Positions 124 to 27,653 of a stretch of 64,000 nt of DNA are shown here, piece after piece; position 1 is the first letter of the stretch; each line of letters opens with the position of its first letter. Under the pieces are notes generated by a model, which was not told the origin of the DNA, did no database searches, and saw only the letters and a list, made by a program, of their open reading frames with translations. The DNA lies in NCBI GenBank assembly GCA_947306475.1, contig CAMZGS010000005.1, positions 1-64,000 on the forward strand, in the 5' to 3' direction. The stretch comes from an uncultured Comamonas sp. Lineage in GTDB: Bacteria > Pseudomonadota > Gammaproteobacteria > Burkholderiales > Burkholderiaceae_C. The translations under genes were made by a program, and so were the position numbers.

Positions 124-138
124 CCCCAGCATAGGGTT
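124..138 (+). promoter_or_regulatory. Degenerate upstream copy of the phage TAGGGTT motif
   Basis: CCCCAGCATAGGGTT, matching the other copies at the CCCC and TAGGGTT blocks. It lies 47 bp before the better copy at 171-185. It has no start codon at the usual 41-45 nt distance, so it may be a spare promoter or regulator site rather than a start-linked one. Confidence 0.5.
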
Positions 139-170
139 TGGCGCTGCAGAGGCAAGGCTGCGAGCGTTAG

Positions 171-219
171 TCCCCGGCTAGGGTTCGCCCATTGAGGTGC
201 TGCTCGGCAGAGTGGGGGC
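171..219 (+). promoter_or_regulatory. Phage motif copy 1: putative promoter and leader of the giant gene
   Basis: Core TCCCCGGCTAGGGTT (171-185); the T of TAGGG at 179 is 41 nt before the ATG at 220. The second block is degenerate here (AGAGTGG at 209, against ACACTGC in other copies). A GGGGG run 1-6 nt before the ATG is the only Shine-Dalgarno-like sequence. The function as a phage promoter is inferred from its recurrence before five transcription units. Confidence 0.6.
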
Positions 220-3200
220 ATGAGCACACCAACTTCCAAGCCTTGGGAACAGTTCTCCCTTCAAGAAGATACTCCGCATGCCTCAGAGCCGTGGTTGAGC
301 TTCCAAACACCTGGGGTAGCAGCCTCAAATCCCAAGCGCTCCCTTGTGAGCGCCATCAACGACAACGTAATCGAGGCCGCCAACGCTGCTGCAGGCACCG
401 CCTCGGCAGTGGCCAACTTCGTTCGCCCTGGCAATGCGCTGTCGGACTACATCGACAAGAACATCATTGAGGCTGGCAACGCTAAGCAGTCCGATGTCGT
501 CAAAGCCGAGAAGGCACGCTACGCCCAGGAGATGGAGCAAGCCCAAGGCTTTGGCGATGAGGTGTCTGCCACGTTGGGTTACGTGGCGCGTAACCCGCTA
601 CTGGCTGCAGCCCAGGCGGCGGGCTCGTTTGCTGGGCCAGGTCTGGCGGTGGGTGGTGCACGTGCAGCAGCAGGTGCTCTGGGTATGGTGGGCAAGGCGG
701 CAACGCGCACAGGCTTGGCCGCTGGTGCTGGATTTGGCATGGCATCTGCCGGTGGCGATGCAGCTGGCACGGCCTATGAGCTGTCGCGCCAAGGTGGTGC
801 CACGGATGAGCAAGCGTTGGCGGCTGCCCGTGGTGCCAGTGTGATTCCCGCAGCCATTGGCGCTGCTGGCGGCTTGGTAGGGGCCGAGCGCCTGGTGGCC
901 GGTGCCAAGGGCTTTACCGGCGGCTTGGCCGCGCGCGCTCTGAAGACTGGGGCTGTGGAGGGCGCACAAGAGGCGCTGGAAGAAGGTGTGACCCAGTACG
1001 AAGGCCAGCGTGCAGCGGTGCCTTTCAACCCTGATCTTGACCCGACAAAGGGCGTAGCAGGGGCGGCCACGATGGGCGCGGTGCTGGGCGGCATGACCGG
1101 TGGCGGGACTTCGCTGCTGACCAGGCAAAACCAGCCCGCCCGCAAGCCCAGCGAGGATTTGGGCCTGAACCCTGACAGTGGCCCCATCTCCAAGGTGGCC
1201 GCTGTTGCTGTGGACGGAGGGCGAGCTGCTGTGCCAGTGCAGCCTGAGCAACCCGCACAGCCCGAGGACGGCCTAAGCCTAGCACCAGAGGAACAGGCAC
1301 AACCCCAAGGCCCCACCCTGGAAGAGCGCTTGGCGGCACTGCCAGAGCAAGCCCGCGCCCAGGCCGAACAGCTGCTGCGCGAAATCGCTGACGAGCGTGT
1401 GCCTGCAGGCGTCAAACGCTTTCGGGCGCATGAGCTGCAACAGATACTGGATGCATATCCAGTGCCCGAGAAAACCGACACCATCACCCCGGAAGAGCGT
1501 GCGGCCATCGGCCCCATCGTGCGCGGCTATGACCCGGCCACGGGCGAGGCGCCTGGCCGCCCGCTGGAGCTGGAGGGCGAGCGCTACCAAGATGGCATCG
1601 ACTTCACCACCGATGAGCAGCCCAGCCAAAGCGCCTATCAGGATGCGATCAACCGCATTGCGCTGGAGAGCTACCAGACGCCCGGCCAGCCCCTGGCTAT
1701 GGAGCAGGCCAGCCGTTTGCGCGATGCAGCGCAAGAGCAGGGCATCCCGGCCACTATCGTGCCGCACCCATCGGGCAAAGGGTTTGATGTGCAGGCCACA
1801 GCGGTGCTGCCTGAAGACGCACGCCAGCAAGTGGCCCAAGACCCCGTGGCTGCGGCCTTGCCCTACGACAACAGCCCCACGGGGCGCATGGTGGCCGATG
1901 CCCAGGGCAATGCCCGTCCAGAGCTGCGCCCGGAGGCGGTGGAGCGCGAGGTGCGCTGGAACCAAGAGCTGGCGCAGATGGATGCAGAGGCACGCCGCCG
2001 TGCTGAGTTGGGGCTGAGCAACCGCACGCCGGTAACGCCTCTGCAGGAAGATGCTGCGCCCCAGCAGCCGCAAAGCTCAGGAGGGCCACTGGCCCCGCAA
2101 GGTGGCCGCCAGCCTGTAGCCAAGCAGCAACCGCAGGATGTGCAGTTTCAGGCATCGACGGGCCGCGATGTGGCTGTGCGCAATGTGCCAGGCTTGGAGA
2201 ACGCGCCCATTGATGTTGAGGCCAGCGAGGTGCACCCCAATCCAGCGCTGGGCATGACGCGCCGCTTGAGCTATGGCGGCGATGGACAACGCCTGGAGCA
2301 GGGGCAGGGCGCTGCTGCGCAGCCAGGGCCTGGCCGTGCTGGCACCCAGCAGCAGACACCACCGGCCTTGCCTGCGCCCAGCAACCTGCGCGAGCGCATC
2401 GAGGCGTTCCGCCAAAAGCAAGCCGAGGCGGCGCGCATGGCGCAGCAGGTTGGGCAAGCCCAAAAAAACAGCGCGCAACCGGCGCAGGCAGGCCAGCCAG
2501 CAGGACAAGTAGCTGCCGCCGCTGGCACGACGATGAACACTGCCAGCAATGATGCCAAGGGTGACACAACTCGCCTTGACGGCGGCACGGCTGCTAGTGT
2601 ACCCGCACAGATCACTGCACGCCAAGCCCAGCAGGCAGGGGCCAAGGCGCGCCAGCAAGCCAAGCAGGCCCAGCGCCAGGCAGAGCGTGCCCAGGCTGCG
2701 CCAGAAGAAACCGGCCTGCGTGTTGGCGTAGCGCCAGGCAGCGCTGACCCTGTGACGGTGCGCGATGGCGTGGTGCACATTGGCGAGTACGAGGCGGTGA
2801 ACTATGACAGCGGCGAGCCGGTCACCGTGCCCAAGGGCAGCACGCGCGCCGATGTGGCGCGTGCGCTTAAGGATGCCGGGGTGCTGAGCAGCCGCCAGAA
2901 GATGTTTGGTTTGAGTGAGAAGGCTCAGGAGGTGATGTTTAGCCGCAGTGCCATGAAGTCCACCGAGGCAAACATTGCGCGTGGGCGTGAATCGCTGGCG
3001 AAGGCACTCAACGAGAAAACAACGGCGCACCGGGCCATGTTCCGCAACGGACTAGGGTGGGTAGATTTTGTGTGGGGCGCCGAGGGTACTGTAAAGCCAA
3101 GCGGTCGAACCAAAGGAGCGATGGGTCTTGCCCACGTGTTGGAGGCAAGGCAGCGTAAAGATGGATATTCGCGTTCAGAAGCCGTTGAATTTCTGAACAG

Positions 3201-6200
3201 CATTGTGGATACGATCGCGCGAGGTTCTGAATTTGATCGCAAAGAAGTAGCGCAGTCCACGCGCGTCGGACTGATTCACCAAGAGACGATTGTTTGGCTG
3301 TCGAGGCACAAAGGCTCCAATGCCTGGGTTGTCACCGGGTACGAAAAAACCCCCAGTGGTACAGCTGCGGGGAGAGCCACTGCTGTACCTACACACGATG
3401 CTGCTTCGCTTACCCGCAGCACCGAGGAGGGGGTAGCGCCGATTATGGGTGAGCAGCACGCAATTAGCAACCCTGCTGGGTTCAGCCAAGAAGGCAAAGG
3501 AGCAAAAATTCTCTGGAGCGGGAGCGAACCCCGCTCGGCTGCCACCGGACGGCAGCCCCTGTATGCTGGCAGTCCTGATGCTATGTCCGGTCAGGATGCC
3601 CCCATCGCTCAGGGAGAGAATTCTGAAAATGAATCGCTTTGGAGCAGGTACCCTGTTCCTGCTGACGCGTCCAGTGTATCTGCACGCGACACTGATGCCA
3701 ACCCCGACATCCTCTACAGCAAGAGCGCCAAGCCCGTAACCAACCCAACCGCCGTCAAGATGCGCCGCGCCATGGTGCAGCGCACGGTGGACGCACTGAC
3801 CAAGGGCTGGGCCAAGGCTCCCAACGTCACCGTTGTGGACAGTATGCAGGATGAGCGCGTGCCTGAGGCAGTGCGCAAGGCCGATGCGGCGCAGCGCTCT
3901 CAGGGCGCTATGGGTGAGCCAGAGGGCTTTTGGTACCGGGGGCAGGTGTACTTGGTGGCCAGCGCATTGCCCACGTCGGCAGATGCTGCCCGCGTGCTGT
4001 ACCACGAGGTGCTGGGCCACCACGGGCTGCGTGGCCACTTTGGCAAGGATCTGGACCGCGTGCTGGACCAGGTGATCAAGCTGCGCCGCAAGGATGTGCA
4101 GGCCAAGGCCCAAGAGTACGGCCTGGACATGGGCAACCCGGTGCATGCTGGCCATGCGGCCGAGGAGGTGTTGGCCGAACTGGCGCAGTCACGGCCCGAC
4201 CTGGGGTTTGTGCAGCGGGCCATTGCGGCCATTCGCAATTTCCTGCGCGCCCATGTGCCCGGATTCAAAGCGCTGGAACTGACGGATGCGGACATTGTGC
4301 AGGGCTATTTGCTGCCTGCGCGTGGCTGGGTGGAGCGTGGAGGGGTGCGTGGCGCAGTGAATGGCGATACTCGCTTTAGCTTTGCTGGTGAGCGGGCCAA
4401 GGCTGGCGCTGACACCATCGACCAAACCGATACCGCAGCCTTCAAGCGCTGGTTTGGGGACAGCAAAGTGGTGGATGCCGATGGCAAGCCGCTGGTGGTG
4501 TATCACGGCTCAAGATTTGGTGGCTTCAGTGTGTTTATGCGTAGTGCTGGCGGGTTCATATACACAACCCCCAATGCTGACTACGCATCTAGGTTTTCGG
4601 GGTCGTCTGATGGTTCTGCCGTGTACCCTGTGTATGTCAGCATCAAGAAGCCTCTTGACCTAACGCATCTTGGTGAGCGCAGTATGTCTGCCGAAGAAGC
4701 TCGCGTAGAGTTGAGGCGACTTGGGGTCAATCTAGATGAGGTGCGGCCTTGGGAAGGTGCTCCAGCCGAGTCGGTGAAGTTGTATGGCGATGGCCCCATC
4801 TGGCGACTGATCCGAGAGGATCGCTTTTCCATTGCCGCCAAGAACGCTGGATTCGATGGAATCAAGATTAATGAAGGTGATGGTGAGGTTGCATGGGTTG
4901 CGTTTGAGTCCAATCAGCTTAAATCCGCCACCGGCAACAATGGCAACTTCGACCCAGAAAACCCGGACATTCGCTTCAGCCGCTCCCAGTCCGCAGACGC
5001 AATCCGCTCCAGCATGGGCGCCCTGACGCCTGACCAGGAGGCTGCCTGGAAGAAAGTGGCCGGCCTAGAGAAGGTGCCCACTCTGCGTGAGCGCTGGGAG
5101 AGCATCAAGGCCAACTTGGGCACGCGCATGAAACAGGCGCTGGTGGATCAGTTCGCCCCTATCGCAGAGCTGGATCAGCATGCCTACATGCTGGCGCGTA
5201 TGTCTAAGGGTAGCGACGGCACGCTGGAGGCAGCGCTGTTGTATGGCCGTCCCTTCTTGCGCGATGGCGTGCCGGATGTGGACGTGAAGGAAGGCGGCTT
5301 TGCCAAGGTGCTGGCCGATCTCAAAGGGGAGCAAGACCGCTTTCTGATGTGGGTAGCTGCACAGCGCGCCGAGCGCCTGAAGGCCGAAGGCAAGGAGAAT
5401 CTGTTCTCTGACCAGGACATTTCCAGCCTGAAGACGCTCAACGACGGCCAGATGCCGGACGGCTCCAGCCGTAAGCAGGCTTATGCCAAGGCGCTGATAC
5501 AGCTCAACAGCTTCAACGAAAGCGTGCTGCGTATGGCCAAGGAGTCTGGCTTGATTGACCAGGCTGCCTACGAGCTGATGAAAGACCAGCCCTATGTGCC
5601 TTTCTATCGCCTGATGGAGGATGAAGGCGGGTTGCAAGGACCGACCTTCTCCAAAGGGCTGACCAACCAGAAGGCTTGGAAGAAGCTCAAGGGCGGCACC
5701 CAGCAACTGAACGCCGATTTGCTACAGAACATGCTGCTGAACTGGGGCAACCTGTATGCCGCCTCTGCGCGCAACCGTGCTGCGCTGGCGACGATGGATG
5801 CTGCCGAGAAGATGGCCATCGCCTACAAGGTGCCTAGCGATACAAAGGGTGCAGCCAAGGTGATGCGTGATGGCGTGACGGAGTACTGGATGGTGGAAGA
5901 CCCATACCTACTGGAAGCCATCAGCGCATTGAACTACCAGGCCAGTCCGCTGATGAAGCCTCTGGCTGCGGCCAAAAAGTGGCTCACCCTGGGCGTGACG
6001 GTGAACCCCACGTTCAAGGTGCGCAACCTGATCCGCGATGTGGTGTCGTCCATGGCCATGGCCGACCTGAGCTACAACCCTGCGGCCAATGTCGCCAAAG
6101 GCTGGAAGCTGACCGCACGCGATTCGCAGGTCTATGCCTCGATGCTGGCCTCTGGTGGTGTGATCCGGTTTGGCACGCAGGAGCAGACCGACCGTGCCCG

Positions 6201-7497
6201 CAGGCAGGTGGCCAAGCTCTCGGGCGTGGTGCTGGACCAGACAGCATGGAAAAAGCTCTGGGGCCAGCTTAAAGCGCTGTATGAGGCCTATGACGATTTT
6301 GGCGACCGCACTGAAAACATCAACCGTGCTGCACTGTATGAGCGTTTGATCCAGAAGGGGCACAGCCATGCTGAGGCATCGTTCATGGCACGCGACCTAA
6401 TGGACTTCTCCATGAGCGGTAGCGCCCCGGTGGTGCGCTTCCTGACGCAATCGGTGCCGTTCCTGAATGCCCGTATGCAGGGCCTGTACAAGCTGGGGCG
6501 TGCCGCCAAGGAAGATCCGCGCCGGTTTGCCACCGTGGCCATGGCCGTGAGCATGGCTTCGCTGGGGCTGCTGGCAGCCTATGCCGATGATGAAGACTGG
6601 AAGCGCCGCGAAGACTGGGACCGTGACAGCTACTGGTGGTTCAAGATTGGGCAGACGGCCTACCGCATTCCCAAGCCGTTTGAGGTGGGCGCCATCGGCA
6701 CCCTGGCAGAGCGCACGGCAGAGGCTATGTTCGATGACGAAATGGACAGCAAGCGGTTCATGGAGCGCATCAGCCACATGGTCAGTCAGACGTTTGCTTT
6801 CGACCCGGTGCCCCAGGCAGTAAAGCCCCTGCTGGACATCTACGCCAACAAGGACAGCTTTACGGGCCGCGCCATCGAAAGCATGGCCGACCAGCGCCTG
6901 CGGCCACAGGACCGCTACAACGAGAAAACCTCGGAAGTGGCGCGCCTGTTGGGCCAGATGGGATTGCCTGACCCTGCGCAGTTGATCAAGGGTGAGTACG
7001 TGGGCCTGAGCCCCAAGCAGATTGACCATCTGCTGCGCGGCTACTTCTCATGGATGGCAACGGCTGCAACCATGACCAGCGATATGCTGCTGCGGAGTAC
7101 AGTGGTGGATCGCGGTGAGGCGCCAGATATGCGCCTGAAGGACATGCCCTTGGTGGGCAATTTTGCGGAAAGCCTGCCTGCTGGTGGCAGCCGCTACGTG
7201 ACGGCTTTGTACGAGCAGTCACGGGCTATCGAGCAAGCCTATGCCTCATACCAGGATGCCCTGAAGTCTGGGGAGCGAGACAAGGCAGCGGAGATCATGG
7301 AGTCTGAGGGTGACAAGATTCGCTCGCGCAGCTCTGTGGCTGCGGCAACCAAGTTGCTGAGCCAGTTGAACGCCCAGGCCAAACGGATTCAGGAAGACCC
7401 GGTAATGAGCGGCGAGGAAAAGCGCGCACGCCTGACGCAGCTTGAACAGAGGCGTCATGAGATTGCCAAGCGTGTGATGGGTCGCCAGACTACTTGA
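220..7497 (+). CDS. Giant polyvalent virion (probably injected) protein, 2425 aa
   Basis: A multi-domain phage protein of the large polyvalent protein class, probably packaged in the capsid and ejected with the DNA. Residues about 125-215 are Gly/Ala-rich and hydrophobic, possibly membrane-channel forming; 340-900 are Pro/Gln/Ala-rich linker. About 930-1042 resemble phage barnase/EndoU/colicin-E5-like nucleases (GLGWVDFVWG, WVVTGYEK). About 1200-1380 look like a zinc metallopeptidase (HEVLGHHG from H1262). About 1400-1582 resemble a polyvalent-protein ADP-ribosyltransferase (FKRWFGDSKVVD, VVYHGS, YTTPNADYAS). The long C-terminus (1950-2400) resembles the LPD38 domain. Short (D/V)x(R/L/M)(F/Y)S(R/K/F) motifs at 905, 1163, 1383 and 1583 separate the modules. 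The ATG at 220 was chosen because it follows the conserved phage leader. Activities are inferred from motifs only. Confidence 0.85.
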   Translation: MSTPTSKPWEQFSLQEDTPHASEPWLSFQTPGVAASNPKRSLVSAINDNVIEAANAAAGTASAVANFVRPGNALSDYIDKNIIEAGNAKQSDVVKAEKARYAQEMEQAQGFGDEVSATLGYVARNPLLAAAQAAGSFAGPGLAVGGARAAAGALGMVGKAATRTGLAAGAGFGMASAGGDAAGTAYELSRQGGATDEQALAAARGASVIPAAIGAAGGLVGAERLVAGAKGFTGGLAARALKTGAVEGAQEALEEGVTQYEGQRAAVPFNPDLDPTKGVAGAATMGAVLGGMTGGGTSLLTRQNQPARKPSEDLGLNPDSGPISKVAAVAVDGGRAAVPVQPEQPAQPEDGLSLAPEEQAQPQGPTLEERLAALPEQARAQAEQLLREIADERVPAGVKRFRAHELQQILDAYPVPEKTDTITPEERAAIGPIVRGYDPATGEAPGRPLELEGERYQDGIDFTTDEQPSQSAYQDAINRIALESYQTPGQPLAMEQASRLRDAAQEQGIPATIVPHPSGKGFDVQATAVLPEDARQQVAQDPVAAALPYDNSPTGRMVADAQGNARPELRPEAVEREVRWNQELAQMDAEARRRAELGLSNRTPVTPLQEDAAPQQPQSSGGPLAPQGGRQPVAKQQPQDVQFQASTGRDVAVRNVPGLENAPIDVEASEVHPNPALGMTRRLSYGGDGQRLEQGQGAAAQPGPGRAGTQQQTPPALPAPSNLRERIEAFRQKQAEAARMAQQVGQAQKNSAQPAQAGQPAGQVAAAAGTTMNTASNDAKGDTTRLDGGTAASVPAQITARQAQQAGAKARQQAKQAQRQAERAQAAPEETGLRVGVAPGSADPVTVRDGVVHIGEYEAVNYDSGEPVTVPKGSTRADVARALKDAGVLSSRQKMFGLSEKAQEVMFSRSAMKSTEANIARGRESLAKALNEKTTAHRAMFRNGLGWVDFVWGAEGTVKPSGRTKGAMGLAHVLEARQRKDGYSRSEAVEFLNSIVDTIARGSEFDRKEVAQSTRVGLIHQETIVWLSRHKGSNAWVVTGYEKTPSGTAAGRATAVPTHDAASLTRSTEEGVAPIMGEQHAISNPAGFSQEGKGAKILWSGSEPRSAATGRQPLYAGSPDAMSGQDAPIAQGENSENESLWSRYPVPADASSVSARDTDANPDILYSKSAKPVTNPTAVKMRRAMVQRTVDALTKGWAKAPNVTVVDSMQDERVPEAVRKADAAQRSQGAMGEPEGFWYRGQVYLVASALPTSADAARVLYHEVLGHHGLRGHFGKDLDRVLDQVIKLRRKDVQAKAQEYGLDMGNPVHAGHAAEEVLAELAQSRPDLGFVQRAIAAIRNFLRAHVPGFKALELTDADIVQGYLLPARGWVERGGVRGAVNGDTRFSFAGERAKAGADTIDQTDTAAFKRWFGDSKVVDADGKPLVVYHGSRFGGFSVFMRSAGGFIYTTPNADYASRFSGSSDGSAVYPVYVSIKKPLDLTHLGERSMSAEEARVELRRLGVNLDEVRPWEGAPAESVKLYGDGPIWRLIREDRFSIAAKNAGFDGIKINEGDGEVAWVAFESNQLKSATGNNGNFDPENPDIRFSRSQSADAIRSSMGALTPDQEAAWKKVAGLEKVPTLRERWESIKANLGTRMKQALVDQFAPIAELDQHAYMLARMSKGSDGTLEAALLYGRPFLRDGVPDVDVKEGGFAKVLADLKGEQDRFLMWVAAQRAERLKAEGKENLFSDQDISSLKTLNDGQMPDGSSRKQAYAKALIQLNSFNESVLRMAKESGLIDQAAYELMKDQPYVPFYRLMEDEGGLQGPTFSKGLTNQKAWKKLKGGTQQLNADLLQNMLLNWGNLYAASARNRAALATMDAAEKMAIAYKVPSDTKGAAKVMRDGVTEYWMVEDPYLLEAISALNYQASPLMKPLAAAKKWLTLGVTVNPTFKVRNLIRDVVSSMAMADLSYNPAANVAKGWKLTARDSQVYASMLASGGVIRFGTQEQTDRARRQVAKLSGVVLDQTAWKKLWGQLKALYEAYDDFGDRTENINRAALYERLIQKGHSHAEASFMARDLMDFSMSGSAPVVRFLTQSVPFLNARMQGLYKLGRAAKEDPRRFATVAMAVSMASLGLLAAYADDEDWKRREDWDRDSYWWFKIGQTAYRIPKPFEVGAIGTLAERTAEAMFDDEMDSKRFMERISHMVSQTFAFDPVPQAVKPLLDIYANKDSFTGRAIESMADQRLRPQDRYNEKTSEVARLLGQMGLPDPAQLIKGEYVGLSPKQIDHLLRGYFSWMATAATMTSDMLLRSTVVDRGEAPDMRLKDMPLVGNFAESLPAGGSRYVTALYEQSRAIEQAYASYQDALKSGERDKAAEIMESEGDKIRSRSSVAAATKLLSQLNAQAKRIQEDPVMSGEEKRARLTQLEQRRHEIAKRVMGRQTT

Positions 7498-7824: not shown

Positions 7825-7873
7825 CCCCCGGCTAGGGTTTTGTTGTTTCTGCGCCCAAGTAGATGCTTGGGCC
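7825..7873 (+). promoter_or_regulatory. Phage motif copy 2: putative promoter and leader of the tail block
   Basis: Core CCCCCGGCTAGGGTT (7825-7839); the T of TAGGG at 7833 is exactly 41 nt before the ATG at 7874. The ACACTGC block is missing, but the leader contains a 7-bp hairpin (GCCCAAG/CTTGGGC, 7852-7871) ending just before the start codon, and there is no clear Shine-Dalgarno sequence. Confidence 0.65.
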
Positions 7874-9136
7874 ATGTCCTCCAAACGCATTGGCCCGTTC
7901 CTGGGCCTGAACAACCAAGCCCCTGCCACCAAGATGGTGCGCGGGGGCGATGCGCCTGGGCACTGGCTGCGCTCTGCTGACAACGTGGATGTGACCGATG
8001 CGGGCACGCTGCGCCGTCGTCAGGGCTGGGTCAAGCGCGCGGGCGGCACACAGATGCGCGGCTTGTTCGCGCTGGCCGATGGCTCTGCCCTGGTGGCCGA
8101 CTACAACCAGCTGTGCCGCCTGACCTATGAGGATGGCCAGCTGTCCAAGCAGGCGCTGATGGCCGATTTGCGCCCGGGCGCGCCGATTTCCTACACCGAT
8201 ACCCCCATGGGCACGTACCTGAGCGATGGCTACGGCCTGTGGGTGTACCGCGCTGGCCAAGCGCTGCGCGCGACGATGGATGTGCCCAACGCCCCCGATG
8301 TGCAGGCCGATACCGGCGGCTCTTTGCCCGGCGGTCTGTACCAAGTGGCATGCACGTTTGTGCAGCAAGACGGCACCCAGTCTTGCGCCAGCGTGGTGGC
8401 CCAAGTTTCGGTGCCAGACAAGGGCTTGCTGCGCATTGGCCTGCCCACCAGCCTGCAGCCTTTGGCAGCAGCGGTGAATGTGTACGTGTCGCCTGTCGAT
8501 GGCGATGTGCTGTTTTTGGCAGAGCAGCTGCCCATGGGCACCACGCAAACCACGCTGTATGTGCCGCCCATGGAGGGTAGTCGCTGCTTCACCCTGCACA
8601 TGGCGCCGATGCCTGCTGGCCAGATCGTGCGCCAGCACCAGGGCCGCTTGCTGGTAGCGCGCGGCGCGGTGGTGTTCACCAGCCAGCCCTACGCCTACGG
8701 CATCTACGACCCAGCAGAGGACTTCATGCAGTTTCCCGCTGAGGTGACGCTGCTGGAGCCAGTGCGCGATGGCCTTTTTATCGTGGCCGACAAGACGTAC
8801 TTCCTGCCCAACGAGCAGGGCGCGCCCATGACAGAGGTGCTGCCCTATGGGGCGCCACGCGGCGCAGCCGTGCAGCGCGGTGAGGGCGGGGGCATTTACT
8901 GGATGGGCGAGCGCGGGCTGGTGCATGCCACCGAGGACGGGCAAGCCAAGAACATGAATGACGGGGTGCTGGCCCTGCCCAAGCCACACAGCGCGGCGCT
9001 GCTGGTGCGCGAGCAAGACGGGATGGAGCAGATCGTGGCCGCCACGCAAGCGCGCCCTGGCGCGAGTTTGGCCCAGGCGCGCAGCTTTATGGATGCGCAA
9101 GTAATCAAGCAAGGAGTTTTGAGCGATGGAATCTAA
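7874..9136 (+). CDS. Phage virion protein, tail-hub/stabilisation-like, 420 aa
   Basis: The ATG at 7874 follows the conserved phage leader; an in-frame start 84 bp upstream would run through the motif and is rejected. The N-terminal pattern (DNVDVTDAGTLRRRQGWVK) and the following series of short beta-strand-like segments (GLFALADGSALVAD, YQVACTF, GLFIVADKTYFL) recall phage proteins of the P22 gp10/T7 gp12 kind that form a beta-propeller hub at the tail. It is first in a block of tail and adhesin genes and overlaps the next gene by 11 bp, implying translational coupling. A virion role is well supported by context; the exact tail position is inference. Confidence 0.7.
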   Translation: MSSKRIGPFLGLNNQAPATKMVRGGDAPGHWLRSADNVDVTDAGTLRRRQGWVKRAGGTQMRGLFALADGSALVADYNQLCRLTYEDGQLSKQALMADLRPGAPISYTDTPMGTYLSDGYGLWVYRAGQALRATMDVPNAPDVQADTGGSLPGGLYQVACTFVQQDGTQSCASVVAQVSVPDKGLLRIGLPTSLQPLAAAVNVYVSPVDGDVLFLAEQLPMGTTQTTLYVPPMEGSRCFTLHMAPMPAGQIVRQHQGRLLVARGAVVFTSQPYAYGIYDPAEDFMQFPAEVTLLEPVRDGLFIVADKTYFLPNEQGAPMTEVLPYGAPRGAAVQRGEGGGIYWMGERGLVHATEDGQAKNMNDGVLALPKPHSAALLVREQDGMEQIVAATQARPGASLAQARSFMDAQVIKQGVLSDGI

Positions 9137-15783: not shown

Positions 15784-15810
15784 AACCCGGCCTTTGCGCC
15801 GGGTTTTTTT
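15784..15810 (+). terminator. Rho-independent terminator after the tail/adhesin block
   Basis: Stem CCCGGC/GCCGGG with loop CTTTGC, then seven T. It is followed within five bases by the next copy of the phage TAGGGTT motif, so one unit ends and the next begins here. Confidence 0.9.
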
Positions 15811-15814
15811 GCGT

Positions 15815-15863
15815 CCCCCGTATAGGGTTTTGGCCAAGTGCTGTAGTTGTGGACACTGCTGGC
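15815..15863 (+). promoter_or_regulatory. Phage motif copy 3: putative promoter and leader of the head gene block
   Basis: Core CCCCCGTATAGGGTT (15815-15829). ACACTGC begins at 15853, 30 nt after the T of TAGGG, and an ATGAGC start codon at 15864 lies 41 nt after it. It sits directly behind a terminator, as expected of a promoter. GCCAAGTG and CACTGCTGGC can form an imperfect hairpin before the start codon. Confidence 0.7.
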
Positions 15864-15944
15864 ATGAGCAATACAGCAAAAGTCTCCACCACGAGTCAGC
15901 GAGGATGTAAACCCAGTTATCTTTGGAGGGTAGTGCCGCAATGA
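15864..15944 (+). CDS. 26-codon leader ORF overlapping the terminase start
   Basis: ATGAGC at 15864 stands at the same distance from the TAGGGTT motif as the start codons of full-length phage genes and opens a 26-codon frame ending in TGA at 15942-15944. That stop overlaps the terminase ATG at 15941 (ATGA). The peptide is Ser/Thr/Arg-rich, with two cysteine-poor halves and no known motif. It may be a leader peptide that couples translation into the terminase gene, or the remnant of a small-terminase gene. Not proven to be translated. Confidence 0.45.
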   Translation: MSNTAKVSTTSQRGCKPSYLWRVVPQ

Positions 15945-17402: not shown

Positions 17403-19592
17403 ATGCAAGCAACCATCAATCAAGGGGGTTTGCAGCCCCACGACGACGACACACCTGCCTTTGACGACCGCCAGGTGCTGCTGCAAAACCTGCTGGCCAA
17501 GCGCCGCGAGGCTATTGCGGGGCGTGCAGGATCGGGCATCGAGGAGGAGTGGACCGAGGACGAGGAGCACTACCAAGGCATTGACGATGCCAACCGGGCT
17601 TTCCAGGCGTCGAACATGCTGTACCGCAGCAGGTCCAAGGCCGTGCTGGGCAATGAGCGAAAGAGCGAGCAAGCGACACGCTCTGTGGTGTTCCTGAACA
17701 TCACCCGGCCATACGTGGATGCGGCCAGCGCGCGGGTGTCCGACATGCTGCTGCCCACGGATGACCGCGCCTGGGAGATCAAGGCCACGCCATTGCCTAC
17801 GCTGAGCCAGCACCAGCTTGCGCAGCTGGCCCAGGCCATGCAGATGGATGACCCTGCGCAGGTCCAGCAGGCGCTGGAGCTGCAGGCAGAGCAAGCCGCC
17901 GAGGCAGCCAAGAAGATGCAGAAGGCCATTGAGGACCCGTTGGTGGAGAGCAACTGGCATGGGGAGGTGCGCCAGGTCATTGAAGATGCTGCACGCTGTG
18001 GCTCTGGCGTGCTCAAGGGCCCGTATCCCGTGATGCGCACGGTGCGCATGACCCGTGAAGACCCGGTGACGAAGATCAAGTCGCAGATCAAGCTGGACGA
18101 GATCAAGCCCGGCTCCAAGCGCATCGACTTTTGGAATTTTTTCCCCGACCCGGCCTGCGGCGAGAACATCCACAACGGCAGCTACACCTGGGAGCGCGAG
18201 TACATCGGCAAGCGCCAGCTCAAGGAAATGCTCAAGGACCAGAGCTACGACCGAGCAGAGCTGATGGCTGCGCTGCTGGAAGGCCCCGCCAAGACGCGCG
18301 AGGGCACAGAAGCTGCGTACCGCCACAGCGACGATGAGTATGAGATGTGGATTTTTCACGGCCACTGCATGCGCCAGCAGTTGCAGGCTATGGGGGTGGA
18401 ACTGGATGAGGGTGCCGATGAGCAGCTGCCCGCAATGGCGGTGATGATCAATGACCGCCTGGTCAAGTGCGTGCTCAGTCCCATCGAGAGCGGTGAGTTT
18501 CCGTATGACGTGCTGGCCTGGCAGCGCCGCCCTGGTATGCCGTGGGGCATGGGCATCAGTCGCCAGATTCGCACGGTGCAGCGCATGCTCAACGGCGCCG
18601 TGCGGGCCATGATGGACAACTCTGGCCTGTCGGCATCGCCCCAGGTGGTCATTGGCAACGGTATCACGCCGGCGGATGGCAAATGGACGCTGCGCCCAGG
18701 CAAGGTGTGGCGGGCAGAGACGGGCAGCGATGTACCGGATGTGCGTGGTGCTTTTGCCAGCTTTGCCGTCACCAGCGTGCAGGCCGAGCTGATGAACATC
18801 ATCAACTTCGCGCTCAAGATGGCCGAGGACACCACCGGCATGCCGGCCATGCTGCAGGGCATCCGCGGCGATGCACCCAACACGCTGGGCGGCATGCAGA
18901 TGCAAAACAACAACGCCACGAGCGTGCTGCGCCGCTTGGCCAAGCGCTTTGACGACTACATGACGCGCCCGCATATCCAGCGCTATTTCGACTGGATGAT
19001 GGCCTACAGCGAGGACGAGAGCATTAAGGGGGACTTCCAAATCGAAGTGCGTGCATCGTCGGCGCTGGTCGAGCGTGACGCGCAGCAGCAGTTCCTGATG
19101 AGCCTGCTGCAGGCGTCGGCAAATCCTGTGTATGAGCTGGACCCGGCCAAGCTGGCAGCCGAGCTGTGCCGTGGCCAGCGCCTGGACCCCAAGAACTTCC
19201 AGCTGTCCGAGGAGAAGAAGGCCCAGCAAGCGCAGCAAGGGCAAGACCCCACGCTACAGGCCAAGACCAAGCTGCTGGAGGCCCAGGCCACCAAGGTGCA
19301 GGCCGAAGCCGTCAACAAGGCCGTGGAGGCGCAGTACGGCGCGGTGCAGGCTGCACAGGTGATCGAGCAGATTCCGGCCACGGCCACCACGGCAGACGGG
19401 CTGCTGCGTTCTGCGGGCTACGAAGACCACGATGCCGCCCCCATCGTGCCGCAGGCGGCAGGCCCAGGGCAGGAGATAGAGCTGCCCAGCAATACCAACC
19501 CGCTGACACCGGCAAATCCCGCGGTGGGGTTGCTGCAAGGCATCGAGACGCCTGGGGCTGATGGCGTGCAGCCGGGAGAGTCCCCCGGCTAG
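17403..19592 (+). CDS. Portal (head-tail connector) protein
   Basis: A 729-residue podovirus-type portal, forming the ring through which DNA enters and leaves the capsid. The N-terminal part carries phrases typical of these portals (SVVFLNITRPYVDAASARVSDMLLP, FWNFFPDPACGENI). The region around residue 380-410 (PWGMGISRQIRTVQRMLNGAVRAMMDN) is characteristic. The C-terminal 120 residues are Ala/Gln-rich helix followed by a Pro/Gly tail. Its TAG stop codon (19590-19592) is part of the next TAGGGTT motif, so the motif is embedded in the end of the coding sequence. Confidence 0.93.
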   Translation: MQATINQGGLQPHDDDTPAFDDRQVLLQNLLAKRREAIAGRAGSGIEEEWTEDEEHYQGIDDANRAFQASNMLYRSRSKAVLGNERKSEQATRSVVFLNITRPYVDAASARVSDMLLPTDDRAWEIKATPLPTLSQHQLAQLAQAMQMDDPAQVQQALELQAEQAAEAAKKMQKAIEDPLVESNWHGEVRQVIEDAARCGSGVLKGPYPVMRTVRMTREDPVTKIKSQIKLDEIKPGSKRIDFWNFFPDPACGENIHNGSYTWEREYIGKRQLKEMLKDQSYDRAELMAALLEGPAKTREGTEAAYRHSDDEYEMWIFHGHCMRQQLQAMGVELDEGADEQLPAMAVMINDRLVKCVLSPIESGEFPYDVLAWQRRPGMPWGMGISRQIRTVQRMLNGAVRAMMDNSGLSASPQVVIGNGITPADGKWTLRPGKVWRAETGSDVPDVRGAFASFAVTSVQAELMNIINFALKMAEDTTGMPAMLQGIRGDAPNTLGGMQMQNNNATSVLRRLAKRFDDYMTRPHIQRYFDWMMAYSEDESIKGDFQIEVRASSALVERDAQQQFLMSLLQASANPVYELDPAKLAAELCRGQRLDPKNFQLSEEKKAQQAQQGQDPTLQAKTKLLEAQATKVQAEAVNKAVEAQYGAVQAAQVIEQIPATATTADGLLRSAGYEDHDAAPIVPQAAGPGQEIELPSNTNPLTPANPAVGLLQGIETPGADGVQPGESPG

Positions 19593-19631
19593 GGTTCGCG
19601 CCATGCTGTGTAAATGGGAACACTGCGGGGT
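19582..19631 (+). promoter_or_regulatory. Phage motif copy 4: putative internal promoter before the scaffold/capsid genes
   Basis: Core CCCCCGGCTAGGGTT (19582-19596), overlapping the portal stop codon. ACACTGC begins at 19620, again 30 nt after the T of TAGGG, and the ATG at 19632 lies 42 nt after it. The position would give separate high-level expression of scaffold and capsid. Confidence 0.7.
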
Positions 19632-19847
19632 ATGAGTACACCAGCTATCGATTTCACATCCCCCACCTGGCATGCCATCCAGACGCTGGCTGCCCAGAAG
19701 GTGGCGCAGCTGCGTGAGCAAAACGATAGCCCGACGCTGGATGCCATAGCCACCGCCAACAAGCGGGGCCGCATTGCAGCGTGGAAAGAGTTGCTGGCGC
19801 TGGCTGAACCAAAGCCAGCCCCAGAGCAAGAGCCCGCCGCCTACTAA
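19632..19847 (+). CDS. Small phage protein, 71 aa
   Basis: ATG at 19632 follows the conserved phage leader; an in-frame ATG 18 bp upstream would cut into it. The product is soluble and helical with an acidic, Pro-rich tail (PKPAPEQEPAAY). The first codons resemble those of the giant gene (both MSTP), reflecting conservation of the leader into the coding sequence. No family recognised. It lies between portal and scaffold, so a head-assembly role is possible. Confidence 0.65.
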   Translation: MSTPAIDFTSPTWHAIQTLAAQKVAQLREQNDSPTLDAIATANKRGRIAAWKELLALAEPKPAPEQEPAAY

Positions 19848-20841: not shown

Positions 20842-21876
20842 ATGGCTCAATTTAAGAGCACTGATCCAGCCGCACGCATTGGCAAGATCAAGGGCGAGAT
20901 TCTGGCCCACGCCATTGCCATCGAAGTGCTGGGCATCTGCGGGCAGCAAAAAGCACTGCCCAAAAACCAAGGCAAGACGGTGGTGTACCGCCGCTATCTG
21001 CCGCATGGCGCGCTCAACACCAACTGGGACACCCGCAACCGCCCCGTGGTGGATGCAGCCGCCCATGAGCTGACCGAGGGCGTGACGCCCACGGCAGATA
21101 GCCTGACCCCGCAGGACATTACCGCTGTGATCAAGCAGTACGGCTGCCTGTATCAGCTGACTGACCAGGTGGTGGATACCTACGAGGACGATGTGCCCGC
21201 CGAGATGAAAAAGCACTGCGGCGAGCGCGTGGGCCTGCTGCGCGAAATGATCCGCTACGGCGTGGTCAAGGGCTGCACCAACGTGTTCTACGCAGGCGGC
21301 AGCTCGCGCGCCACGGTGGCTGAGGCTATTTCGCTGAACCTGCTGCGCAAGATCAGCCGCAACCTGCAGGCCAACCATGCCAAGCGCATTACCGGCGTGC
21401 TGGATGCCAGCCCCAGGATTGCCACGCGCCCCGTGGAGGCCTCGTACTTGGTGTTTGTGCATACGGATGCCGAGGCTGATGTGCGCGACCTCAAGGGCTT
21501 TATCCACGTGAGCGAGTACGGCAACCGCAAGCCTGTGCACGCCCAAGAGCTGGGCAGCTGCGAGAACTTCCGCTTCATCACCTCGCCTGAGCTGGCTCCC
21601 TATGCGGGCGCTGGCGCAGACATCGGCACTACCGGCCTGACCGGCACCACCAAGGTGGACGTGTACCCATTCATCGTGTGCGGTGAGGATGCCTGGGGTC
21701 AGCTGGCTTTGCGTGGTACGGACTCGATCGATCCGACCTACATCCCCCCTGGCCAGAAGGACAAGTCCGACCCGCTGGGCCAGCGCGGCTACATCGGTGC
21801 CAAGTTCTACATGAACGCGGTGCTGCTCAACGAGGGCTGGATGGCCATCGCTGAGGCGGGTGTGTCGGCGCTCTAA
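20842..21876 (+). CDS. Major capsid protein, N4-gp56 family
   Basis: 344 residues forming the icosahedral shell, HK97 fold by family knowledge. Family-typical phrases are GKTVVYRRYLPHGALNTN, ITAVIKQYGCLYQLTDQVVDTYEDD and ASYLVFVHTDAEADVRDLKGFIHVSEYG. AAGGAG lies 8 nt upstream of the ATG. It follows the scaffold gene by 26 bp. Confidence 0.93.
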   Translation: MAQFKSTDPAARIGKIKGEILAHAIAIEVLGICGQQKALPKNQGKTVVYRRYLPHGALNTNWDTRNRPVVDAAAHELTEGVTPTADSLTPQDITAVIKQYGCLYQLTDQVVDTYEDDVPAEMKKHCGERVGLLREMIRYGVVKGCTNVFYAGGSSRATVAEAISLNLLRKISRNLQANHAKRITGVLDASPRIATRPVEASYLVFVHTDAEADVRDLKGFIHVSEYGNRKPVHAQELGSCENFRFITSPELAPYAGAGADIGTTGLTGTTKVDVYPFIVCGEDAWGQLALRGTDSIDPTYIPPGQKDKSDPLGQRGYIGAKFYMNAVLLNEGWMAIAEAGVSAL

Positions 21877-22440: not shown

Positions 22441-23085
22441 ATGACCCTGGGCGAACTGATCGCGCTGTATCGCGCACAGGCAGGCGACACGGCAGAGCCT
22501 TACTTCTGCGATGACGAGCTGCTGACCATCTATGCCAATGAGGCGCAGATGGAGGCATGCCGCCGTGGCCAGCTGCTGCTGGATGCATCGCGCGTGCAGC
22601 TGCAGGCTGGGCAGGAGATGGTCAAGCTGACATCTACGGCACTGCGCGTGACCCGTGCATTTGTGGATGGCCATGCTGTGAGTCTGATCGGCGCTGAGCA
22701 AATGGATGGCCTGTACCCCGGCTGGCAGTTCGACGACCCGCAGCGCCAGGTGCAGCACCTGGTGTTTGGTGTTGCAACCGGGGCTTTGTACCTGTGGCCG
22801 CGCCCAAGCCAGGCTGGTGAATTGCACATGACGGTGCAGCGCCTGCCCAAGATGCCAATGGCGGATGCACAGGACGAGCCAGAGATTCGCCAAGAAGCGC
22901 ATTCCGCCCTGGTGCACTGGATGCTGTGGCGCGCCTACAGCCGCATGGACACCGACCTCTACAACGATGCCAAGGCCGCGATTGCGCTGCAGCAGTTTGA
23001 GGCCGAGTTTGGCAGCAAGGCATCGGTGCGCAATGAGGAGTGGGTGCGCAGTGGCGCTGCCCTGATGCCGGGGCCCATTGCCTGA
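22441..23085 (+). CDS. Head-tail adaptor protein, 214 aa
   Basis: The N-terminal MTLGELIALYRAQAGDTAEPYFCDDELLTIYANEAQMEACRRG is typical of the adaptor/connector proteins of podovirus-like phages, which bind below the portal ring and start the tail. A helical N-terminus is followed by a beta-rich middle with MTVQRLP and a helical C-terminus, as in that family. It follows the decoration-like gene by 8 bp. Confidence 0.8.
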   Translation: MTLGELIALYRAQAGDTAEPYFCDDELLTIYANEAQMEACRRGQLLLDASRVQLQAGQEMVKLTSTALRVTRAFVDGHAVSLIGAEQMDGLYPGWQFDDPQRQVQHLVFGVATGALYLWPRPSQAGELHMTVQRLPKMPMADAQDEPEIRQEAHSALVHWMLWRAYSRMDTDLYNDAKAAIALQQFEAEFGSKASVRNEEWVRSGAALMPGPIA

Positions 23086-25009: not shown

Positions 25010-25149
25010 GGGGGGGGAATTTAGCAGAGGGACACACTGGGGAGGTATGACCATTTCGGCAATACCCGGGCCGAACCACTGCCCGATCTTTAGCCCAACC
25101 TGCGATGTGCTGTACAAAAAACCAGTTGAAAAATTCTCAAAAATGCAGA

Positions 25150-25190: not shown

Positions 25191-25235
25191 AACAACGGTG
25201 TAGAGTTCGCGCTCATATAAGCAGGAGGAAGAGCA

Positions 25236-25705: not shown

Positions 25706-25748
25706 AACACCCGCAAAGCGAGACGGTTACCCTTTGCCTGCACGTAAC

Positions 25749-25772
25749 AAAGCCCTCGCAAGAGGGCTTTTT
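25749..25772. terminator. Bidirectional terminator between hicA and the Arc-like repressor
   Basis: Perfect stem AAGCCCTC/GAGGGCTT with GCAA loop followed by T residues on the + strand and preceded by A residues, placed between convergent genes. Confidence 0.85.
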
Positions 25773-25780
25773 CATGTGGG

Positions 25781-26287
25781 TCAGTTTTGACTTAGGTCTT
25801 GTTCGGCAGTCGACGCGCTGCTCTGCATACCAGTGATGGCTTCACGAAGCTGTGTGATCTGATCTAGTACCACAGTTCGTTCCTCGGCTATTTTTTCCAG
25901 CTCAATGCCCACGGCATCCATATCGTCCTCAGTGGTGCGCATGGCTTGCAACTTGGCTTCGGCCAGCTCGAAGTCGTGATCTGTTTTTGCTTGCTTGGCG
26001 AGCAGGGCAGCTTCCGCACCCAGAGCAGCATGGCGTTCAGCGAGAGATTGCTGGCGCAGCTTAACCATCTGTATCTGCATGTCCAGCATTGCTACTTTGT
26101 TGTAGAGACTTGTGGCTTGCAGGATGGCCTGCCAATTGGTGCTGTCGCTGGCGCGACCAGCAAAGCTTTCTTCCAGGCGGGCAACGATCTCGGCGTTCAA
26201 GCTCCTGTTGGACGATTCCGCTGACGCTTTCAGCTTTTCGTACAGAGAGTGGGGAAGTCTGAACTGGCTTCTAAAAATTTCTTGCAT
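25781..26287 (-). CDS. Arc-type ribbon-helix-helix repressor with long coiled coil, 168 aa
   Basis: Residues 5-43 (FRSQFRLPHSLYEKLKASA, NRSLNAEIVARLEESF) match the Arc/Mnt ribbon-helix-helix fold: a beta-strand with basic/polar contacts and then two helices. After that comes a long helical region (about 55-160) rich in Leu/Glu/Lys/Ala heptads, much longer than Arc itself (53 aa) and likely to set oligomerisation. It is transcribed divergently from a second Arc-type gene across a 19-bp palindrome, which resembles the mnt position in the phage P22 immI region. It probably represses the facing promoter and its own. Confidence 0.8.
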   Translation of the reverse strand: MQEIFRSQFRLPHSLYEKLKASAESSNRSLNAEIVARLEESFAGRASDSTNWQAILQATSLYNKVAMLDMQIQMVKLRQQSLAERHAALGAEAALLAKQAKTDHDFELAEAKLQAMRTTEDDMDAVGIELEKIAEERTVVLDQITQLREAITGMQSSASTAEQDLSQN

Positions 26288-26351
26288 GTCACTATGTTGA
26301 CACTACAAAGTGTTCTTTGTATAGTGACACTGTGTCACTAAAAAGGAGTTG
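26288..26351. promoter_or_regulatory. Divergent promoter/operator region of the Arc-KilA-N module
   Basis: On the + strand a near-consensus sigma70 promoter: TTGACA (26298-26303), 16 bp, TATAGT (26320-26325). A perfect 19-bp palindrome TAGTGACACTGTGTCACTA (26322-26340, single T centre) overlaps the -10 and start site, the expected place for a repressor. Further half-sites TGTCACTA (26288) and TGACACTA (26298) stand in direct repeat nearer the minus-strand gene, suggesting a second operator for that side. AAGGAG (26343-26348) is the ribosome binding site of the + strand gene. Confidence 0.8.
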
Positions 26352-26354
26352 ATG

Positions 26355-26522
26355 ATGAACACACCAATCGGCAAGGTGCCCCCATTGGGGCTGCGTCTCC
26401 CACCTGATCTGAAGGCTTGGGTTGCGGAGCAGGCAAAAAAGGAGCGTCGCAGCGTCAATAGCTGGCTGACCATTCTCATTGAGCAGAAGAAAGCAGAGGC
26501 CCAGCATGAAAAGCAGGCCTGA
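26355..26522 (+). CDS. Small Arc-type ribbon-helix-helix protein, 55 aa
   Basis: Size and sequence match P22 Arc: LGLRLPPDLKAWVAEQA (strand and helix 1), RRSVNSWLTILIEQKK (turn and helix 2). ATG at 26355 has AAGGAG 6 nt upstream; ATG at 26352 would be too close. It is the first gene of a unit with the KilA-N protein behind it, as arc precedes ant in P22. It probably represses this promoter to limit the antirepressor. Confidence 0.82.
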   Translation: MNTPIGKVPPLGLRLPPDLKAWVAEQAKKERRSVNSWLTILIEQKKAEAQHEKQA

Positions 26523-26598
26523 AAAAGGAAACGCCCCGATGGCTGCAACCACCGAGGCGTCGAGTGAAAAGTCCCAACACACTAAGAAAGGAACAATC

Positions 26599-27516
26599 GT
26601 GAGCAATTCTACAACACTGACCATCGCAGGTGTCGTCGTCCGTCAACTCAACGGCCTTTTCTCGCTCAACGACCTGCACAAGGCCGCTGGCGGTGAAGAA
26701 AACTTCAAGCCAGCTTTCTTCCTGCGCAACGACCAAACCAAAGCGCTGATTGCAGAAATCGCAAAAGGTGCAGATTTGCACCTTTTCCTGAACGCCACCA
26801 AAGGCCGCAACGGCGGCACCTACGCCTGCCGCGAACTGGTCATTGCCTACGCTGCTTGGATCAGCGCAGCGTTCCACCTCAAGGTGATTCGCGTGTTCTT
26901 GGCCGTGACCGCGCCCCAGCCCACGCCCTACACCGTCCAACCCGGCGACACCTTGAACGAAGCCCAGCAAATCGCCCTGCGCGCCATGCTGGAAAGCAAC
27001 GTCAAGCGCCTGCCACTGGAAAAGCGCGGCGAGGCAATGCGCCAGGGCTGGAGCAAACTCAAGTCGCACTTCAAAGTGCCCTATCGCCAGATACCAGCCA
27101 GCGAGTTTGAGGAAGCCCTGTCCATCATTGCCCGCCACGTTGCCCAGTGGGAGTTGGTGGATGAATCTACACAACCCGCCATCCAGAGTCAGGCAGCACT
27201 GCAACTGCCGCGTCTGGGTCTGCACATGCAGCCGCCCCCGGTTGGAACTTACCGCTACAACCCGGCCAACCCTTACCCGCGCAATGGCCGAACCATTGAA
27301 GTTGCCAAGAGCATTGCTCTGGATATCCTGAACTGGAGCGACCACCTGCCCACCGCCCAGGCCCGCCAAGATCTGCACGATGCAGCACAAACGCTGCACG
27401 ACCTACTGGTCAGTGGCTGGACCGAAGTGGATGAAGCATTGAGCAAGATGCACACTGCCATGCACTTCCTCAACCGCTGGCAGGGCCGAGGTGGTGCGGT
27501 GGGTAACTGCCAATAG
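26599..27516 (+). CDS. KilA-N domain protein, putative antirepressor
   Basis: The N-terminal KilA-N domain is clear: LTIAGVVVRQLNGLFSLNDLHKAAGGEENFKP, then GGTYACRELVIAYAAWISAAFHLKVIRVF. The C-terminal part (about 110-305) is helical and not recognised. The GTG at 26599 has AAAGGA 6 nt upstream; an ATG at 26539 (AGGA 10 nt upstream) would add 20 unconserved residues and is the alternative. Behind an Arc-type gene and a strong repressible promoter, it occupies the place of the P22 antirepressor and would be expected to relieve lysogenic repression when made. Function inferred from domain and context. Confidence 0.85.
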   Translation: MSNSTTLTIAGVVVRQLNGLFSLNDLHKAAGGEENFKPAFFLRNDQTKALIAEIAKGADLHLFLNATKGRNGGTYACRELVIAYAAWISAAFHLKVIRVFLAVTAPQPTPYTVQPGDTLNEAQQIALRAMLESNVKRLPLEKRGEAMRQGWSKLKSHFKVPYRQIPASEFEEALSIIARHVAQWELVDESTQPAIQSQAALQLPRLGLHMQPPPVGTYRYNPANPYPRNGRTIEVAKSIALDILNWSDHLPTAQARQDLHDAAQTLHDLLVSGWTEVDEALSKMHTAMHFLNRWQGRGGAVGNCQ

Positions 27517-27521
27517 AAATT

Positions 27522-27540
27522 CATAGCTGCCAGCGCTTCT
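27522..27540. repeat. Half copy of the host intergenic repeat inside the prophage
   Basis: CATAGCTGCCAGCGCTTCT matches the arm of the dyad repeat found between the chromosomal genes here (for example 45012-45024 and 59585-59600). It lies just after the KilA-N gene. Only one arm is present. Confidence 0.6.
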
Positions 27541-27576
27541 CCGGCAATGGCTAGAGGCGCATTTCGTAAAACCTAT

Positions 27577-27599
27577 AACCCGCCCCGGCGGGTTTTTTT
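27577..27599 (+). terminator. Rho-independent terminator after the KilA-N gene
   Basis: Stem CCCGCC/GGCGGG with a two-base CC centre, then seven T. The phage motif copy 5 begins two bases after the T run, as at 15784-15829. Confidence 0.85.
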
Positions 27600-27600
27600 G

Positions 27601-27653
27601 CCCCCGCCTAGGGTTTGTTGCGCTGGCGCCGCGTGGGGACACTGCACCCCATT
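27601..27653 (+). promoter_or_regulatory. Phage motif copy 5: putative promoter and leader of the lysis cassette
   Basis: Core CCCCCGCCTAGGGTT (27601-27615). ACACTGC starts at 27639, 30 nt after the T of TAGGG; the ATG at 27654 is 45 nt after it. TGGGG/CCCCA flank the ACACTGC block and could form a hairpin. It lies directly behind a terminator. Confidence 0.7.

Follow-up and report, generated by a model that had tools for sequence, protein, structure and literature searches.

A repeated bipartite motif in a Comamonas prophage as putative activator-dependent, mostly leaderless late promoter of F116-like phages

Motif copies and gene units of the prophage

The stretch of DNA analysed here comprises 64,000 nucleotides (nt) of an uncultured Comamonas sp. 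(assembly GCA_947306475.1, contig CAMZGS010000005.1, positions 1 to 64,000; referred to as the window) and carries a prophage in which the motif CCCC-N4-TAGGGTT (CCCCNNNNTAGGGTT) recurs at the borders of gene units. Judged from sequence comparison, each copy is probably a late promoter of F116-like phages, at which a phage-encoded activator, most likely a member of the protein family phrog_8117, would act together with a sigma70 -10 box to give mostly leaderless mRNAs. Observed directly are the sequence pattern, the strand, the place and the spacing of the copies as well as their co-occurrence with phrog_8117.

The strict motif has five exact matches in the window, at 124, 7825, 15815, 19582 and 27601, all on the + strand, and none in 100 dinucleotide shuffles of the window. 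An earlier note, made from the letters of the window, had described the repeat with a run of five cytosines; the repeat is real, and its placement on the + strand, at gene-unit borders within the prophage, is confirmed. The list of copies needs one amendment: the copy at 171 begins with TCCCC and hence has a T in place of one C. The repeat thus comprises five exact copies and one with a single mismatch. From the T of TAGGG (at 179, 7833, 15823, 19590 and 27609), from which all offsets given as +n are counted, the start codon ATG is reached after 41, 41, 41, 42 and 45 nt, as had been reported. The block ACACTGC, which had been noted at +30 in three copies, is indeed found there but turns out to be one form of a degenerate A-N3-T box that is present in all five window copies with a gene start, the other two forms being AGAGT and ATGCT. 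Likewise, two copies (15815 and 27601) do stand directly behind terminator-like hairpins, at 15784-15805 and 27577-27594. The features of the window are as follows, all on the + strand.

124..138, +, activator-site motif as a near-copy that lacks a -10 box and an ATG
171..185, +, putative activator site, late promoter of the gene for the 2425-residue protein (one C replaced by T)
208..213, +, -10-like box CAGAGT (A at +30 and T at +34)
220..7497, +, 2425-residue protein with predicted leaderless start at 220 (phrog_18222, function unknown)
7825..7839, +, putative activator site, late promoter of the head-closure module
7853..7872, +, -10 region enclosed by the inverted repeat GCCCAAG-tagatg-CTTGGGC, one base ahead of the ATG at 7874
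7862..7867, +, -10-like box GATGCT
7874..9136, +, head-closure protein Hc3 (phrog_8040), predicted leaderless start
15784..15805, +, hairpin resembling an intrinsic terminator, immediately before the putative promoter at 15815
15815..15829, +, putative activator site, late promoter of the terminase/portal module
15852..15857, +, -10-like box GACACT
15864..15944, +, 26-codon frame, predicted leaderless start, ATGA overlap with the start of the terminase large subunit (ATG 15941)
19582..19596, +, putative activator site, late promoter of the capsid module (TAG is the portal stop codon)
19619..19624, +, -10-like box AACACT
19632..19847, +, 71-residue frame, predicted leaderless start, followed by capsid genes, among them the one for the major head protein (phrog_1357) at 20842
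27577..27594, +, hairpin resembling an intrinsic terminator, immediately before the putative promoter at 27601
27601..27615, +, putative activator site, late promoter of the lysis module
27634..27651, +, inverted repeat TGGGG-acactgca-CCCCA with the -10 box inside, 5 pairs only, two bases before the ATG
27638..27643, +, -10-like box GACACT
27654..27953, +, holin-like protein (phrog_4237), start codon at +45

The units behind the copies encode the 2425-residue protein, Hc3 with structural genes, the terminase large subunit (TerL) with the portal protein, the capsid module and the holin, so that all units but the first have clear late functions. The head-closure protein and several other proteins of the window have relatives in F116-like phages. 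At 19590-19592 the TAG of TAGGG doubles as the stop codon of the portal gene, and the promoter overlaps the gene end. At the near-copy at 124 (T at 132), 47 bp upstream of the 171 copy, both the -10 box and an ATG at the corresponding distance are missing; it may be a decayed copy or an additional upstream site. A second CCCC-AGCA-TAGGG[TC]T upstream of a promoter is seen in two places, in the window (124-185) and on contig C13 of the same genome (locus L070, about 2660-2710, - strand), at the gene of the terminase small subunit (TerS); the distance is 47 bp in the window and 31 bp at TerS, and the doubled motif may perhaps act as a tandem activator site.

In the 2.9-Mb source genome there are six exact matches and none of the reversed control. 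Five belong to the prophage of the window, and the sixth, on C13, precedes a phage gene (phrog_1084) in the vicinity of TerS, NinB, a helicase loader and phrog_8117. The frequent matches in the host chromosome that the earlier note had named as the finding to speak against it are therefore not seen in this genome. TerS on C13 is set apart from TerL, and the 26-codon frame 15864-15944 resembles by eye the start of the 150-residue phrog_1084 protein of C13. We infer that C13 and the window hold parts of one prophage.

The right end of the prophage is probably formed by the tRNA-Leu (CAA) at 29256-29340, the presumed attachment site, because 61 bp (29253-29312) align at 98% identity with sequence next to the integrase of Acidovorax phage AP1. 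An Rfam scan of the window returned tRNA only. Within the late region a sigma70-like promoter, TTGACA-17-TATAGT (11 of 12 positions), is located at 26297-26325 and precedes an antirepressor-like gene (26479-27516).

Distribution in viruses and host relatives

A search of viral contigs with the bipartite pattern gave 61 stretches from 54 records. In the 47 of these records that were searched whole, 121 copies of the short motif (summed by hand) are opposed to 2 of the reversed control. With up to five copies per phage record, the copies are confined to a single strand in 46 of the 47 records and in 38 of the 39 with two or more copies. In phage AP1 the terminase unit, the head-closure unit and one further late unit have a copy, always with the ATG at +42, and F116 has two exact copies of a shorter pattern, both intergenic.

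A chance pattern or host repeat could be suspected, as loose forms of the pattern are frequent by chance. When three mismatches to the earlier pattern were allowed, the window gave 10 matches where 16 are expected, i.e. chance level, and therefore only the strict form is informative. The form CCCN4TAGGGT is scattered over 51 of 53 genomes of the genus, and the short motif has 31 matches (summed) in the genomes of 41 relatives compared with 37 for the reversed control; the short motif is thus not specific by itself, and only the longer pattern separates. With the A/T box included, the motif has 30 sites in the 53 genus genomes, distributed over 13 of them, compared with 2 for the reversed control. 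Together with the absence of the strict motif from shuffled sequences, its confinement to phage-type DNA in the source genome and the one-stranded placement within records, this already contradicts chance or a host repeat, to which we give practically no credit.

Anatomy of the putative promoters

The profile was built from 118 distinct copies, some places in host genomes included; for the 121 sites of virus records 110 loci had been fetched, 30 by search and 80 separately. In a curated set of 109 copies ten rows were dropped by hand as likely chance or unclear (L079, L080-L085, L087, L103 and L109) and L274, which is the same as one of the dropped rows over the compared stretch, was added. 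This removal is not a clean one, as L079 and L103 come from prophage or virus records, and the counts for all 118 copies are given alongside. Furthermore, the virus records were picked by a pattern holding ACACTGC, by which this box is enriched in part, and the 69 sites without it were counted apart.

In the second block the frequency of A is 0.86 at +30 and 0.69 at +32, and that of T at +34 is 0.87. The combination of A at +30 and T at +34 is found in 99 of 118 copies, in 50 of the 69 without the letters ACACTGC at +30, and in 98 of the 109 curated copies, the highest count at any other offset (8 to 49) being 7. A at position 2 and T at position 6 of a sigma70 -10 hexamer are thereby found at a fixed place, and the block looks like a -10 box in its key positions. 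No clear -35 box is present: 17-18 bp ahead of the -10 box stands TCGCCC or TTCGCC, which is itself part of the motif and agrees with TTGACA in at most three of six positions, the TTcG of the motif occupying the place where a -35 box would stand. A sigma70 promoter scan of the window has no motif copy among its listed promoters.

In 92 of the 118 copies an ATG follows at +41 to +43, and Shine-Dalgarno-like tetramers precede only 6 of these 92 start codons. Among 17 sites with the ATG elsewhere, to which the 27601 copy of the window (ATG at 45) belongs, the -10 box is retained in 14, and 9 of the 17 have a Shine-Dalgarno sequence and a later ATG within the 39 bases read. As the spacing from motif to -10 box is fixed and that from -10 box to ATG mainly where the Shine-Dalgarno sequence is missing, the fixed distance to the ATG suggests transcripts that start on or beside the ATG, with most late modules leaderless. 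The earlier proposal of a phage-specific promoter at a fixed distance to the start codon is supported by these comparisons, its fixed leader being better understood as no leader, and the start of transcription is predicted on or next to the ATG and not at TAGGG itself, which the earlier note had named as the finding that would lend support. That the downstream frames begin with Met-Ser holds for all five in the window and fails as a general rule: among the 92 sites with ATG at +41 to +43 Met-Thr is found 26, Met-Ala 20, Met-Lys 18 and Met-Ser 17 times.

A different function of the two blocks, namely as an RNA leader element that controls translation of transcripts from farther upstream, would account for the fixed distance to the ATG, the missing Shine-Dalgarno sequence and a covarying inverted repeat just before the ATG, which is described below. 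It is nevertheless very improbable, as the blocks keep their 30-nt distance when the ATG lies elsewhere (14 of 17), two window copies stand directly behind terminators, and the second block stays at its distance from the motif where the inverted repeat has its centre displaced.

In the preferred promoter mechanism, the sequence CCCCC-N3-TAGGGTTcG, with the core half-sites CCC-N6-GGG centred about 43 bp upstream of the predicted start, would be bound by the phage activator, which would take the place of the missing -35 box and is required by this proposal because no clear -35 box exists. The host sigma70 RNA polymerase would use the A-N3-T box 30 nt downstream and begin on the ATG or one base before it, with a minority of modules provided with a short leader and a Shine-Dalgarno sequence. 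The motif would span about -50 to -34, and the centre of CCC-N6-GGG falls at -43.5 if +1 is 42 nt after the T; -42.5 is equally possible, as the start itself is a predicted one.

Two other assignments were considered. TAGGGT as the -10 box itself was rejected in view of variants with an A to G exchange (TGGGG, TGAGG) that keep the -10 box and the ATG; GG is retained in these variants. A hairpin promoter of the N4 virion polymerase type was weighed because a remote N4-related domain is reported for the F116-like phage phiC725A (PMC5217972); it is disfavoured by the constant -10 box.

Variant sites of related phages

The window's Hc3 protein served to retrieve the related phages F116, 8P and Y7, of which F116 was also among the motif matches; Shewanella Y11 and the loci L322-L350 were retrieved through their relationship to phrog_8117. 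At the late borders of F116, 8P, Y7, Y11 and other relatives without TAGGGTT, variant sites are found: the site of 8P is CCCCCTGTAGGGCT, those of Y7 and Y11 are ACC/CCC-N-TGTAAGGTT-like, and that of F116 at TerS has TAAGGTT with ATG at +42. In 23 variant sites A-N3-T stands exactly at +30 in 14 and between +29 and +31 in 21; these sites were hand-picked, not blind, from borders and pattern lists, some of which required the A-N3-T box. The boxes of the F116 TerS and capsid sites are at +29 and +31.

If the variant sites function as proposed, annotated gene starts would be corrected: TerS of F116 is annotated from 22851, and the predicted leaderless ATG is at 22776, 42 nt after the T at 22734. 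In the late region of F116 (L068, 33363-33569) and of 8P (L097, 9910-10122) a gene annotated as CsrA-like regulator is present, and GGA is frequent before the A-N3-T box; a link between the two is speculative.

Inverted repeats in front of the start codon

At sites of the leaderless type, an inverted repeat often surrounds the -10 box, with its 3' arm ending just before the ATG. A stem of at least 6 pairs is found in 34 of the 92 leaderless-type sites, compared with 7% in shuffles, and in 0 of the 17 other sites (Fisher 0.0009, with related sites counted as independent). After clustering it is found in 20 of 56 clusters, compared with a maximum of 13 in 20000 re-pairings of arms between clusters; covariation of a stem at the start codon is thereby seen in 20 clusters, and the other 36 of 56 are without such a stem. 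The arms vary between promoters, even within one record (L269, L270 and L272 of G059), and therefore structure rather than sequence seems to be conserved. In the window the repeat is present at 7825 (7 pairs) and 27601 (5 pairs). It is the one respect in which the earlier suggestion of an additional control of translation finds a counterpart in the data.

By analogy, an RNA hairpin in read-through transcripts, which would hide the start codon, is preferred over a DNA structure that aids melting. Stem mismatches of the G-T kind (6) and the C-A kind (3) do not discriminate between RNA hairpin and DNA cruciform. An upstream terminator does not predict the repeat, which is found in 2 of 6 cases with and 17 of 50 without terminator. 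With such RNA hairpins, only transcripts begun at the activated promoter would be translated. The most far-reaching version of the proposal, in which a phage lineage has a mostly leaderless late regulon, phrog_8117 as new activator family, and covarying hairpins at many promoters that gate transcription together with translation, is put forward tentatively and as clearly less probable than the promoter function itself.

phrog_8117 as candidate activator

The frames of AP1 and F116 were each compared with ten other phage or prophage sets (eleven in all). phrog_8117, which corresponds to gp37 of F116, is the most widespread early-region protein of AP1, with 6 of ten sets, and no other early-region frame exceeds 3 of ten; phage 8P was covered only to base 50000 in that comparison, its phrog_8117 being missed there and found in the record search. 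The family is present in 35 of 50 records tried, the 15 without it comprising 14 fragments below 33 kb, and, of 31 virus records with the motif and a length of 45 kb or more, in 30. Among the 53 genus genomes 26 have phrog_8117, including all 13 with motif and A/T box (Fisher 1.2e-5). Of the 30 sites in these genomes, 20 occur on the contig of a phrog_8117 match, in every case downstream of it and on its strand. In a sample of the class, matches are limited to 7 of 369 genomes, two of the genus of the window with strong E-values and five with weak partial matches.

The phrog_8117 gene follows NinB towards the end of the early region. It is placed at the early/late border both in F116 and on C13, and on C13 it lies upstream of TerS. 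A structure model based on 12 sequences shows a winged helix (residues 11-69) and a C-terminal helix of 65 residues, with a mean predicted local distance difference test score (pLDDT) of 77.9 and a predicted template modelling score (pTM) of 0.39. Profile searches in Pfam, NCBIfam, PHROGs and the Protein Data Bank (PDB) gave no function, and fold searches with the model returned mostly generic winged helices besides other matches, none with E below 0.001. On the basis of co-occurrence, gene position and predicted fold, phrog_8117 is the likely activator of the late promoters, with CCCCCGNNTAGGGTT as its putative target.

Several observations weigh against this assignment or against the promoter proposal as a whole. 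The 56-kb record G070 has a motif match without phrog_8117, and 13 of the 26 phrog_8117-bearing genus genomes are without a match of motif and A/T box, perhaps because their sites are degenerate. The co-occurrence is confounded by shared descent, since these phages share virion genes too. The -10 boxes of the window are far from TATAAT, and some phage sites (L079/L245, L103 and L274) lack the -10 box as well as the ATG. The two exceptions among the 23 variant sites are those at TerS in Y7 and Y11, where A-N3-T is missing at 28-32 and a -10-like hexamer is apparently placed 4-5 nt closer. The bipartite pattern with the box exactly at +30 matches only 10 of the 29 loci L322-L350, with 13 sites on the strand of the phrog_8117 gene, 1 on the opposite strand and 0 for the controls. 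The 19 misses consist of 15 near-identical F116-like loci, three (L324-L326) with variant sites and L350, which has phrog_8117 and no recognisable site in the stretch examined.

The same promoters might be served by another phage or host factor, phrog_8117 having a different role. Co-occurrence does not equal binding, these phages having other genes in common as well, and the family is without known function in PHROGs and labelled as putative AbiEi antitoxin in two phage records. On the other side, the AP1 early region has no equally widespread protein in the above comparison, and phrog_8117 combines a predicted DNA-binding domain with the position at the early/late border and the presence in all 13 genus genomes with motif and A/T box. 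We regard another factor as possible, if rather unlikely.

Somewhat less probable still is that phrog_8117 is a processive antiterminator, which loads at these promoters and causes terminators to be read through. Its gene position after NinB resembles that of Q in phage lambda, which is located at the end of the early region. AlpA, too, is predicted to be a winged-helix protein and exerts its action through an element of the promoter; this element is placed between -10 and -35, unlike the present motif, which starts 30 nt upstream of the -10 box (PMC7969949). Up to five copies per record, with two window copies directly behind terminators, favour activation of each unit, and the lack of a clear -35 box likewise calls for an activator.

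If phrog_8117 is the activator, a function would be assigned to a phage protein family labelled unknown, the late-gene switch of F116-like transducing phages would be explained, and a natural set of mostly leaderless-type late genes would be at hand for the study of leaderless translation.

Comparison with known systems

Phage-coded activators of late operons are represented by Ogr/Delta of P2 and RinA of staphylococcal phages, which appear to differ from the present motif and phrog_8117 in site, position and protein family. A literature search for the motif, for late regulation of F116 and for leaderless late phage genes yielded no description among the listed entries, the F116 genome paper (Byrne and Kropinski 2005) lying outside its scope; passages of PMC4936722, PMC5567305, PMC11200629 and PMC3558961 likewise contain none.

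With respect to the inverted repeats, the T4 genes e, soc and I-TevI have, according to extracts of PMC2988022 and PMC3014915, late promoters within inhibitory hairpins. In both cases the inverted repeat at the start codon would be complete only in longer read-through transcripts, with the late promoter in its 5' part. Contrary to T4, the promoter is of another type, the leaderless-type start codon lies outside the stem, and the stem is found in 20 of the 56 clusters.

The nearest rival for the mechanism is, by analogy, AlpA. Like lambda Q and AlpA (the latter a predicted winged helix; PMC7969949), phrog_8117 would be a phage-type regulator that works via a promoter-linked element. The motif starts 30 nt upstream of the -10 box, and not between the -35 and -10 regions, several promoters are served, and among the 19 PDB matches listed for the phrog_8117 profile none is named AlpA or Q.

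The closest parallel in promoter architecture is the middle promoter Pm of phage Mu with its activator Mor, together with the Mu late promoters and their activator C. For Pm, PMC4390567 describes a sigma70 -10 box, no -35 box, and a 16-bp inverted-repeat site with a 6-bp spacer on which an activator dimer is centred at -43.5. The CCC-N6-GGG core would have about the same centre if +1 is 42 nt after the T. Unlike Mor, phrog_8117 has its predicted DNA-binding domain in the N-terminal part, and up to five copies per record, mostly of the leaderless type, are found. Two phrog_8117 members tried in Pfam with E up to 1 gave no Mor profile match. While membership of the Mor/C family is not recognisable, the motif would thus appear to work like a Mor-type activated promoter.

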